From the NCBI RefSeq assembly GCF_001718695.1, contig NZ_CP013420.1, positions 434,001 through 498,000 on the forward strand: a stretch of DNA of 64,000 nucleotides, given 5' to 3'. The stretch comes from Burkholderia ubonensis. GTDB taxonomy: Bacteria; Pseudomonadota; Gammaproteobacteria; Burkholderiales; Burkholderiaceae. Of this stretch, positions 25,875 through 29,583 are shown one piece after another; within the stretch, counting starts at the first letter, position 1; every line of letters starts with the position of its first letter. Both the position numbers and the translations under genes were made by a program. The notes beneath the pieces were generated by a model. The model was not told where the DNA came from and made no database searches. It saw only the letters and a program-made list of their open reading frames with translations.

Positions 25875-25920
25875 CGGTGCGGGGCGGCAGGGCGGTCACG
25901 CCCCCGCGCCGCGAAACGAA

Positions 25921-25947
25921 AAAGGCCGCGTGTCGCACGCGGCCTTT
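25921..25947. terminator. Bidirectional terminator between the methyltransferase gene and ppsR
   Basis: A perfect 12-bp stem AAAGGCCGCGTG / CACGCGGCCTTT (25921-25932 with 25936-25947) with a 3-nt loop, A-rich on the left and T-rich on the right, between converging genes. Confidence 0.85.
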
Positions 25948-25987
25948 TGTCCTTGCGGGGCGGGAAGGGCGGCGCGCCCGCGCCGCG

Positions 25988-26804
25988 TCAGTACGATTGC
26001 CGGTCGAGGCGGACTTCCTGCAGGATCGTCGTCGCGATTTCCTCGATCGACTTGTGCGTCGACGACAGCCACTTGATGCCTTCGCGGCGCATCATCGCCT
26101 CGGCTTCGTTGATCTCGTAGCGGCAATTCTCGGGCGCCGCGTACTTGCTGCCCGGCCGGCGCTCGTTGCGGATCTCGGACAGGCGCTGCGGATCGATCGA
26201 CAGCCCGAACAGCTTGTCGCGGTGCGCGCCTGAGCGCGGACGGCAGCTTGCCGCGCTCGAAGTCTTCCGGAATCAGCGGATAGTTCGCGGCCTTCACGCC
26301 GTACTGCATCGCGAGGTACAGGCTCGTCGGCGTCTTGCCGCTGCGCGACACGCCGACGAGGATCACGTCGGCCTCCGACAGGTTGCGGTTCGACTGGCCG
26401 TCGTCGTGCGCGAGCGAGAAGTTGATCGCCTCGATCCGCGTCTTGTATTCCTCGGTGTCCGCGTTCTGGTGCCCGCGGCCCATCGCGTGGCTCGACTTGA
26501 GCTGCAACTCCTGCTCGAGCGGCTCGACGAAGCGCTGGAACATGTCGAGCACGAGCGCGTTCGAGCGCTTGACGATCTCGTTCGACTCGCTGTCGACGAG
26601 CGTCGTGAACACGATCGAGCGGCGGCCGTCATGCACGGCGGCTTCGTTGATCTTCTCGACGGTTGCGTACGCCTTGTCGAGCGAATCGACGAACGGCACG
26701 CGCACGAGGCGGAATTTCTGGTCGAACTGGGAGAGGATCGAATGCGCGAAGGTCTCGGCAGTGATCCCGGTGCCGTCGGAGACGATGAAAACGGTAGGCA
26801 GCAT
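25988..26804 (-). pseudogene. ppsR: PEP synthase regulatory protein PpsR, frameshifted
   Basis: PpsR is the bifunctional serine/threonine kinase-phosphorylase that inactivates and reactivates PEP synthase by ADP/Pi-dependent phosphorylation. The frame from the ATG at 26804 encodes MLPTVFIVSDGTGITAE and a P-loop VGVSRSGKTPTSLYLA, then runs off after GKLPSAL into an unrelated frame. The missing C-terminus is intact in the next frame ([15 protein letters not shown] near 26,220 through [18 protein letters not shown] to RLDRQSY and a stop at 25988-25990). One extra base lies in 26222-26234, where a G more than needed follows the codon for Leu. The total of 817 nt is one more than a normal 271-codon gene. 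Either a sequencing error or a true mutation. It is divergent from ppsA, its regulatory target. Confidence 0.93.
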
Positions 26805-26905
26805 GAATCTGGAAGTCGAACGTGAAGGGCGGGGCGGCGCAGGCGGCTGGAGGTCGCTCTCCAGGCGCAGTGACAAGGTCGCGCCACATCCGGCAGCCGG
26901 CACGG

Positions 26906-26911
26906 TAGAAT
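26906..26911 (+). promoter_or_regulatory. Possible -10 element for the ppsA leader transcript
   Basis: TAGAAT at 26906-26911 would place a transcript start at about 26917-26919, exactly at the left edge of the long stem described next. No convincing -35 is seen 17 bp upstream (GCCACA). Confidence 0.4.
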
Positions 26912-26915
26912 AGCG

Positions 26916-27098
26916 GCAACCTGTTGGATAAGCAATTGCGGGGGGCCGCGCGCGACGCGCGCAGCGCGCTTGCCGCAAACGATTGAAAAATCCCGGCAAG
27001 TTCGGCGATATGGCTGCAAATGTCGCCCTTCTGCCGGGATTTTTGTAAATCGGGTCGGAGGGTTTTCGGGCCTCGCGATTGTTTATCTAACAGGTTGC
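26916..27098 (+). ncRNA. Nested stem structure in the ppsA leader (candidate cis-regulatory RNA)
   Basis: Bases 26916-26943 can pair with 27071-27098 over 28 uninterrupted base pairs, four of them G-U (26926/27088, 26932/27082, 26937/27077, 26941/27073). Inside it lies a second perfect 13-bp stem (26986-26998 with 27032-27044) whose 33-nt loop has an inner GGCGA/TCGCC pairing (27004-27008 with 27023-27027). The element sits between ppsR and ppsA, 85 nt before the ppsA start. I do not recognise it as a known riboswitch or as 6S RNA. The fold is seen in the sequence; a regulatory role is inference. Confidence 0.6.
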
Positions 27099-27183
27099 AC
27101 AAGACGCGCCGCGCCTTTTTGCAAGCGCCCGCGTTCAAGCCCACTTGCGCGATCGAGCATTTTTTTCACACTTAGGGGCTTGT

Positions 27184-29583
27184 ATGACTAACGCAGCAAA
27201 CGTCGCAAAGGACCAGGCGTATGTAATTCCGTTCGAGCAGTTGCGGATGACCGATGTGGAGATCGTCGGCGGCAAGAATGCGTCGCTCGGCGAGATGATC
27301 AGCCAGCTTGCGTCGGCAGGCGTGCGCGTACCCACCGGTTTTGCCACGACCGCGCTCGCATTCCGCGATTTCCTCAAGCACAACGACCTCACCGACCGCA
27401 TCGCGAAACGTCTCGAGTCGCTCGACATCGACGACGTGAAGGCGCTCGCCGAAGCCGGTGCGGAGATCCGCAAGTGGATCGTCGACGCGCCGCTGCAGCC
27501 GCGCCTCGAGCAGGACATCCGCGCGCAGTTCGAAGTCCTGCAGAACGGCTCGCCGGGCGAGCTGTCGTTCGCCGTGCGCTCGTCCGCGACCGCGGAAGAC
27601 CTGCCCGACGCATCGTTCGCGGGCCAGCAGGAGTCGTACCTGAACGTCGTCGGCATCGACGACGTGCTCGATCGCATGAAGCACGTGTTCGCGTCGCTGT
27701 ATAACGACCGCGCGATCTCGTACCGCGTGCACAAGGGCTTCACGCACGCCGAAGTGGCGCTGTCGGCCGGCGTGCAGCGCATGGTCCGCTCGGACGTCGG
27801 CGCGGCCGGCGTGATGTTCACGATCGACACCGAGTCGGGCTTCAAGGACGCCGTGTTCATCACGTCGAGCTACGGCCTGGGCGAAACCGTCGTGCAGGGC
27901 GCGGTGAACCCGGACGAGTTCTACGTGTTCAAGACCACGCTCGCGCAGGACAAGTACCCGATCATCCGCCGCTCGATCGGCTCGAAGCTGATCAAGATGG
28001 AGTTCACGCAGCCGGGCGAGCCGGGCCGCGTGAAGACGGTCGACGTGCCGCACGAGCAGCGCAACCGCTACTCGATCACCGACGACGACGTGATCGAGCT
28101 GGCGAAGTACGCGGTGATCATCGAGAAGCACTACCAGCGTCCGATGGACATCGAGTGGGGCAAGGACGGCCGCGACGGCAAGATCTTCATCCTGCAGGCG
28201 CGCCCTGAAACGGTGAAGAGCCAGGCGAGCGGCAAGGCCGAGCAGCGCTTCAAGCTGAAGGGCCAGTCGCAGGTGCTGGCGACGGGCCGCGCGATCGGCC
28301 AGAAGATCGGCGCGGGCCCCGTGCGCGTGATCCAGGACCCGTCGGAAATGGAGCGCGTGCAGCCGGGCGACGTGCTGGTCGCGGACATGACCGACCCGAA
28401 CTGGGAGCCGGTGATGAAGCGCGCGGCCGCGATCGTCACGAACCGCGGCGGCCGTACCTGCCACGCGGCGATCATCGCGCGTGAGCTCGGCGTGCCGGCG
28501 GTCGTCGGCTGCGGCGACGCGACCGACGTGCTGAAGGACGGCGCGCTCGTCACGGTGTCGTGCGCGGAAGGCGACGAAGGTAAGATCTACGACGGGCTGC
28601 TCGAGACGGAAGTCACCGAAGTGCAGCGCGGCGAACTGCCGGAAATCCCGGTGAAGATCATGATGAACGTCGGCAACCCGCAGCTCGCGTTCGACTTCTC
28701 GCAGCTGCCGAACGCCGGCGTCGGCCTCGCGCGTCTCGAGTTCATCATCAACAACAACATCGGCGTGCACCCGAAGGCGATCCTCGAGTACCCGAACATC
28801 GACCAGGATCTGAAGAAGGCGGTCGAGAGCGTTGCGCGCGGCCATGCGTCGCCGCGTGCGTTCTACGTCGACAAGCTGACGGAAGGCATCGCGACGATCG
28901 CCGCGGCGTTCTACCCGAAGCCCGTGATCGTGCGGATGTCCGACTTCAAGTCGAACGAGTACAAGAAGCTGATCGGCGGTTCGCGCTACGAGCCGGACGA
29001 GGAAAACCCGATGCTGGGCTTCCGCGGCGCGTCGCGCTACATCGCCGACGATTTCGCGCAGGCGTTCGAGATGGAGTGCCTCGCGCTCAAGCGCGTGCGT
29101 GACGAGATGGGCCTGTCCAACGTCGAGATCATGGTGCCGTTCGTGCGGACCGTGAAGCAGGCGGAGCGCGTCGTGAACCTGCTCGCGAAGTTCGGCCTGA
29201 AGCGCGGCGAGAACGACCTGCGCCTGATCATGATGTGCGAAGTGCCGACCAACGCGATCCTCGCCGAAGAGTTCCTGCAGCACTTCGACGGCTTCTCGAT
29301 CGGCTCGAACGACCTCACGCAGCTCACGCTCGGCCTCGATCGCGACTCGGGCATGGAACTGCTCGCAGTCGATTTCGACGAGCGCGACCCGGCGGTCAAG
29401 TTCCTGCTGAAGCGCGCGATCGACACCTGCCGCAAGATGGGCAAGTACGTCGGCATCTGCGGCCAGGGCCCGTCCGATCACCCGGACTTCGCGCAATGGC
29501 TGACCGATGAAGGCATCGTGTCGATCTCGCTGAACCCGGACACGATCATCGATACGTGGCAGGCGCTCGCCAAGCGGAAGTAA
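27184..29583 (+). CDS. ppsA: Phosphoenolpyruvate synthase
   Basis: 799 residues. It converts pyruvate, ATP and water to PEP, AMP and phosphate for gluconeogenesis. The N-terminal ATP-grasp domain ([10 protein letters not shown] near residue 26, and [18 protein letters not shown], about 136-153), the swivelling phosphohistidine domain with the catalytic His in [14 protein letters not shown] (about 425) and the C-terminal TIM barrel with the active-site Cys in [14 protein letters not shown] (about 758) are all present. The ATG at 27184 follows an AGGGG. It is the target of the divergent ppsR. Confidence 0.97.

Follow-up and report, generated by a model that had tools for sequence, protein, structure and literature searches.

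In the 64,000-nt stretch of Burkholderia ubonensis DNA analysed here (the window), the gene for phosphoenolpyruvate (PEP) synthase, ppsA, lies on the plus strand at positions 27184–29583 (NCBIfam NF005057, 1265.6 bits; TIGR01418, 1177.7 bits). It is preceded by a leader (26906–27186) composed of a promoter, a long stem (P1) that begins at the predicted transcription start, a stretch of variable length and a second hairpin (P2). Between P2 and the Shine-Dalgarno (SD) region there is a U7 tract (27160–27166, plus strand), and the SD itself (27174–27182, plus strand) reads AGGGG followed by CUUG, its GGGCUUG being able to pair with 27136–27142. On the minus strand, and divergent from ppsA, a profile match located ppsR, the gene for the PEP synthase regulator (25896–26804, start at 26804). 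The ppsR frame looks interrupted: the PpsR match runs to about residue 193 (profile positions 5–195 of 272; 284.3 bits vs. a cut-off of 350), while a PpsR-like C-terminus can be read in another frame. The interruption may reflect natural loss or a sequence error. The position of the stem between ppsA and ppsR, as given in a preliminary description of this DNA, is found also in named relatives. Among the 80 named loci listed, ppsR was divergent upstream in 76 (the other 4 were too short) and the PpsA N-terminus followed within 700 nt downstream in 73; of the 7 misses, 5 came from incomplete sequences and two (L160, L188) were full length with no match to the motif.

Direct reading of the plus strand showed that P1 is formed by 28 uninterrupted pairs between a 5′ arm at 26916–26943 (GCAACCTGTTGGATAAGCAATTGCGGGG) and a 3′ arm at 27071–27098 (CCTCGCGATTGTTTATCTAACAGGTTGC), both recovered also by folding. 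The extent of the stem was described correctly before, and so was the nature of its four non-Watson-Crick pairs (26926/27088, 26932/27082, 26937/27077, and 26941/27073), all of which are G-U on the strand transcribed toward ppsA. Folding of 26900–27150 gave a z-score of −4.9 for the plus and −3.9 for the minus strand, and none of 200 shuffles was as good on either strand. The 5′ arm follows the −10 element at the same place in relatives. In the window this element, TAGAAT, is present at 26906–26911 (plus strand), where the preliminary description had put it, within a block (GCACGGTAGAATAGCGGC) that hardly changes across many relatives. By its letters it fits the B. cenocepacia −10 consensus TAnAAT, a motif located on average at −16 to −8 according to the available text of PMC4603805. 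From this spacing the ppsA transcript is predicted to start at about 26918–26919 (plus strand), at the base of P1. As a generic sigma-70 consensus scan of 26800–27250 returned no promoter, we infer the start from the −10 spacing. With such a start, the first 2–3 of the 28 P1 pairs would probably lie outside the RNA.

The leader is widespread in the family: BLAST gave matches in 155 of 200 family genomes at E ≤ 0.01, the weak ones being not all confirmed at ppsA. For comparison we assembled 128 leaders from 21 genera, picked mostly through leader BLAST similarity together with ppsA positions. Promoter and coding anchors were present in 117 of them; the 11 leaders without a promoter or coding anchor, including two of the three from genus g15, were dropped and scored as "not found" by anchor and fuzzy arm match alone. 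P1 was detected in 114 of the 128 leaders, covering 14 genera. No P1 was detected in g2, g9, g12, g18, g19, g21, and g22 (7 of 21 genera), whose sampled genomes are all smaller than 3 Mb. Leaders L081, L086, and L089 were removed before alignment; L086 has both arms by eye, but its scoring had started from an incorrect promoter match. When named genomes were scanned with the 5′ arm, at least 119 stretches were obtained, and the 80 matches listed include Burkholderia, Paraburkholderia, Caballeronia, Trinickia, Pandoraea, Cupriavidus, and Ralstonia as well as one Burkholderiales MAG. Paraburkholderia xenovorans LB400 (L161) has the 5′ arm, and a Trinickia leader, with its short loop, measures about 180 nt. 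When these stretches, chosen by the 5′ arm alone, were inspected for the partner arm, it was present in 116 of the 118 that were long enough (the two misses were 168 and 170 nt), so P1 is not a product of chance. A pattern of the main-group 5′ arm was found in 5 of 399 genomes of the order, with 5 of 13 positive within the window's own family and 0 of 386 outside it; this pattern misses Cupriavidus-type arms, and the result covers that sequence alone. P1 is single-copy in its genome. Two genomes have a second ppsA paralogue, and nothing in its upstream region (L104, L105) matched the leader 5′ arm.

Other structures were seen before ppsA in more distant leaders. In another family of the order (f4), L276 carries a 25-column stem of other sequence before ppsA; this concerns one of 20 other families, each represented by one genome. 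In L286, also of f4, AAGTCACC near the promoter faces GGTGACTT at the SD, as judged by eye. A different hairpin (GTTAGGTGAGC/GCTCACCTAAC) immediately precedes the ribosome-binding region of ppsA in L083 (genus g21), with a close variant in L087, again by eye.

Pairing of P1 is kept in relatives. Over 23 P1 pairs in 114 leaders, 91.8% of cells were paired vs. 28–40% in slid registers, the register being set by best match. Comparison of the main group (CAACCTGTTGGATAAGCAATTGC) with Cupriavidus-type leaders (CGATCTTTTGGCTAAGCAATTCC) revealed several pairs changed on both sides and still paired, and these double changes represent few independent events. In a custom tree-based test, 1 of 23 pairs covaried significantly, and the commonest second state of this sole pair is a C-A mismatch. 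The preliminary description had looked to alignment and covariation of P1 for support; the alignment showed retained pairing, and covariation is weak because both arms are almost frozen. Several 5′ positions are fixed although their 3′ partner has drifted, and the 5′ arm at 26917–26938 is conserved beyond the needs of pairing, which suggests that something else may pair with it or bind it. An extra pairing of this arm with the start region was considered and rejected as too weak. In 106 distinct arm pairs the wobble count was 198 G-U vs. 63 A-C cells, a single fixed U-G column accounting for 96 of the 198, and parsimony assigned 23 single changes to G-U and 13 to A-C. The earlier claim that the wobble bias marks an RNA and not a DNA repeat is retained in part: RNA made toward ppsA is the best reading, but the family-wide bias of P1 is moderate and its covariation weak.

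The best ungapped helix began promoter-proximally in all 33 home-family leaders examined (up to three per genus) and scored above 13.2 in 29 of them. P1 scored 10.4–10.6 in three g24 leaders and one g3 leader, no better than the helices of other families, where 19 of 20 best helices scored at most 13.2 in search stretches not identical to the home-family ones. In each of 12 folded leaders the mean pairing of the first 12 nt was 0.70–0.95. P1 is a conserved complementarity, weakest in g24, that probably, though not with proof, forms an RNA helix.

The stretch between the P1 arms ranges from 5 to 209 nt across leaders and is 12–14 nt long in g25. In the window, leader comparison located within it a terminator-like hairpin (26986–27044, plus strand; AAAAATCCCGGCA...TGCCGGGATTTTT, with an inner stem GGCGAT/GTCGCC). 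The hairpin CCCGGCA...TGCCGGG with its T run occurs in 23 of 23 Burkholderia (g1) leaders and in 0 of 91 others. Under a loose rule, some terminator-like hairpin was detected in 23 of 23 Burkholderia leaders, against a mean shuffled expectation of 0.09, and in 12 of the 91 others. The Burkholderia hairpin is terminator-like on the other strand as well in 16 of 23 leaders, and a strict terminator scan (loops of 3–8) listed none. The large nested stem of the preliminary description holds for its outer 28 pairs; the length of the inner part varies, and no genus but Burkholderia showed its hairpin. The inner hairpin is not the core of the ppsA leader element, and may add attenuation in Burkholderia.

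A second hairpin, P2 (27093–27154, plus strand), which was absent from the preliminary description, is located just 3′ of P1. Its lower helix P2a joins 27093–27103 to 27144–27154 (CTTGCGCGATC), with one A-C mismatch in the window, and P2b joins ACGCG (27104–27108) to CGCGT (27130–27134); both helices were supported by alignment, RNAalifold and the pair test. In a core of 75 leaders, a set that excludes L116 and divergent genera, the lower two helices vary yet pair (e.g., GCAAG/CUUGC and GCGUG/CACGC). An in-house R-scape-style test covered 15 P2 column pairs, one of which is not a real pair (4% paired); 4 of them reached a two-set E ≤ 0.05, one at 0.049. When all 12,720 column pairs were tested, none reached E ≤ 0.05 (best E 0.17), and the top two were P2 pairs. 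RNAalifold predicted P2 unaided, with 11 of 19 pairs changed on both sides.

We further evaluated P2 jointly with the anti-SD helix described below, in 40 sequences hand-picked from the 75. Paired cells amounted to 98.9% vs. 93.4 (sd 0.4) in shuffled alignments, cells changed on both sides to 63 vs. 18.5 (sd 5.2), and covariation to 0.321 vs. 0.213 (sd 0.008); for these three measures 0 of 500 shuffles reached the observed values, the shuffles leaving the relatedness among the 40 sequences in place. Slid controls were 23–51% paired. Less striking were the number of pairs with both-side changes (8 vs. 5.2, reached by 2 of 500 shuffles) and the further pair types (23 vs. 22, reached by 151 of 500). 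Wobble cells numbered 72 G-U vs. 1 A-C in P2a and P2b, and 37 vs. 4 in the short upper stem, a bias from which P2 reads as RNA in the ppsA direction. It is P2 and not the long stem P1 that carries the stronger evidence for RNA, since the P1 arms are almost frozen and their covariation is weak.

A covariance model of P2 matched 22 of the 60 genomes searched, once in each; these genomes represent 9 of 25 genera, and by coordinates all 22 matches lie just upstream of ppsA. They include g11, g15, and g16, three genera outside the model building. In this search, run with tightened filters and with no more than 66 candidates scored per genome, no match was obtained in g3, g5, g7, g17, and g24. Covarying P2 is found in Burkholderia, Paraburkholderia, Caballeronia, and Trinickia; the model also matched, less strongly, in Pandoraea and two further genera. 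Cupriavidus-type leaders have a different short hairpin (by eye and in folds), and folds of g3 and g24 leaders likewise place a different short hairpin after P1.

The first letters of P2a, GGUUG (27093–27097, plus strand), can pair either with CAACC at the foot of P1 or within the base of P2a, though not in both at once, and RNAalifold extends P2a over this strand. As GGUUG is common to the foot of P1 and the start of P2a, the two folds would compete. The P2a 3′ letters opposite it are A or G where they face U and U or C where they face G; two of the columns have two exceptions each. Beside P2a there is a conserved bulge, CAAGCCC (27136–27142, plus strand), complementary to GGGCTTG of the SD region. 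In 40 of 40 sequences AAGCCC forms 6 pairs with GGGCUU; 4 of these are invariant and 2 vary only from A to G opposite U. Being largely invariant, this anti-SD match could be a coincidence with a fixed SD. Related matches occur in some divergent genera, e.g., AAAGCCCC/GGGGCUUU in g16 and UGCUUC facing GGAGCA in g5, and a clear match was not seen in leaders of g3, g7, and g17. Nested folds of 12 leaders showed AAGCCC-type pairing with the SD clearly for L036 and L075, and in the g25 and g16 examples anti-SD pairing masks the SD. We did not identify a ligand-binding core in the leader; given its match to the SD, the conserved GCCC next to P2a may represent a platform rather than an aptamer.

Our preferred reading, held tentatively and at a little less than even confidence, is that the region is a structured 5′ leader of the ppsA mRNA which acts in cis and controls ppsA by competing folds. 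An RNA element is likely here; the switch, its signal and the transcript we infer. In one fold, P1 would be complete and AAGCCC would mask the SD, giving low translation. In the other, P2a would take GGUUG, the 5′ end of the RNA would be freed and AAGCCC would be held in the bulge, with changed translation or mRNA decay as the outcome; exposure of the 5′ end would perhaps be a second output beside the translation switch. A candidate signal (a metabolite, protein or small RNA) would shift the balance between the folds, and in Burkholderia the terminator-like hairpin in the P1 loop could add premature termination. That the leader moreover represents a novel riboswitch class, responsive to a metabolite from the PEP-pyruvate node, whose ligand would set GGUUG in P1 or in P2a and so couple 5′-end exposure to masking of the SD by AAGCCC, seems to us distinctly unlikely.

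Several other explanations were weighed against competing folds. The leader might be a stabiliser with no switch, in which P1, with P2 stacked on it, closes off the extreme 5′ end to RppH and RNase E and the result is simply a long-lived ppsA mRNA. P1 begins at the predicted +1 also in lineages with a different stem sequence, the first 12 nt are highly paired in every folded leader, and the wide range of inter-arm lengths is expected if a paired 5′ end alone matters; such a stabiliser leaves unexplained the near-frozen 5′ arm, the conserved GCCC beside P2a and the shared GGUUG, and we regard it as possible, if on the doubtful side. It is less probable, though not by itself implausible, that only P2 is RNA and that P1 is DNA, two inverted sites for a ppsA-specific regulator with one of them at the start site. 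The high conservation of the arms, the 5′ positions fixed where the pair is broken and a P1 wobble bias of only 23 vs. 13 changes are in line with this. Against it, the arms lie anywhere from 5 to 209 nt apart, their helical phasing fell short of significance (p about 0.06) and was discarded, and the genome has no third site within 3 mismatches, the two matches being the two arms themselves, which led us to reject an operator of the regulon type. Further, 96 of 106 arm pairs retain a T-G column, which interrupts a palindrome in DNA but leaves an RNA stem intact, and both arms change together in Cupriavidus-type genomes.

For Burkholderia, the product could be a short RNA ended by the 26986–27044 hairpin, formed by attenuation or as a 5′-UTR-derived small RNA. 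The constancy in that genus of this hairpin with its T run, and of loose-rule terminators well above the shuffled expectation, speaks for it, and there is a precedent in B. cenocepacia biofilms, where 82 5′-UTRs gave short transcripts by processing or attenuation according to the available text of PMC5688073, membership of ppsA in that set being not established. Yet the hairpin is missing from the 91 leaders of other genera (12 of which have one under the loose rule), the inter-arm stretch of g25 has just 12–14 nt, and the other-strand terminators and the empty strict scan weaken the case further, so that we consider a short RNA improbable. P2 has also the outline of an intrinsic terminator with P1 as its competing antiterminator, given GGUUG common to P2a and P1 and the U7 tract that follows; it was rejected as highly improbable, because there are 5 nt between stem and tract and because genus g10 has about TTCCATCC in place of the tract. 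Mobile elements often contain long inverted repeats, and a chance or mobile inverted repeat was considered for this reason. P1 is single-copy and occupies the same site before ppsA across genera, on which grounds a mobile or repeated element was rejected and the probability of such an origin is negligible.

Translation-controlling riboswitches and leaders with an anti-SD platform are a known kind. The ppsA leader resembles them in having competing helices with a shared strand and a conserved element that complements a metabolic gene's SD; it differs in that no aptamer core or ligand was identified, and in that, across the 60 genomes searched, ppsA was the only gene with a P2 model match before it. 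Two features by which a structured cis-regulatory leader is recognized, a conserved position upstream of one gene and compensatory base changes, here in the P2 helix, were both found. Control of PEP synthase by PpsR acts on the protein, not on the mRNA, unlike the leader. It concerns the same enzyme, with ppsR as the divergent neighbour, and ppsR mutations arose in glyphosate-resistant B. anthina (available text of PMC10667639). The candidate cis-regulatory RNAs sucA, sucA-II, sucC, and Polynucleobacter-1 (PMC2864571, PMC4603805, as far as their available text goes) are likewise structured RNAs of Proteobacteria, sucA and sucC lying before central-carbon genes; here, by contrast, no Rfam 15 family was obtained at gathering score in 26000–28000, the best candidate being KDPG-aldolase RNA (21.9 vs. 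54.6 bits) at 26836–26909, outside the stem. The Vibrio small RNA Vsr217 offers another case of RNA control in gluconeogenesis: in the available text of PMC8265627, PpsA protein is raised in the deletion mutant and fbp is the shown target, but Vsr217 is trans-acting and ppsA is not a predicted target, while the ppsA leader element lies in cis. We found no ppsA leader RNA described in the literature on ppsA and PEP synthase, leaders, UTRs, and structured RNAs, a search whose scope ended before supplements and the motif list of the "224 candidate structured RNAs"; no such leader appears in the available text of PMC10667639, PMC5688073, PMC5719362, PMC2864571, PMC4603805, PMC7563307, PMC12322963, and PMC8265627. 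The suggestion that the RNA is undescribed agrees with these searches, and the best reading of the ppsA leader is a structured cis-regulatory RNA not found described before.

PEP synthase feeds pyruvate into gluconeogenesis, and a conserved folded RNA before ppsA may help to set the amount of this enzyme. The leader offers a concrete candidate switch that can be tested with reporters, P1 vs. P2a and anti-SD vs. SD. If our reading is true, central metabolism would have a new point of control in the leader common to Burkholderia, Paraburkholderia, Caballeronia, Trinickia, and Pandoraea, to which the related stem before ppsA in Cupriavidus-type genomes would belong.
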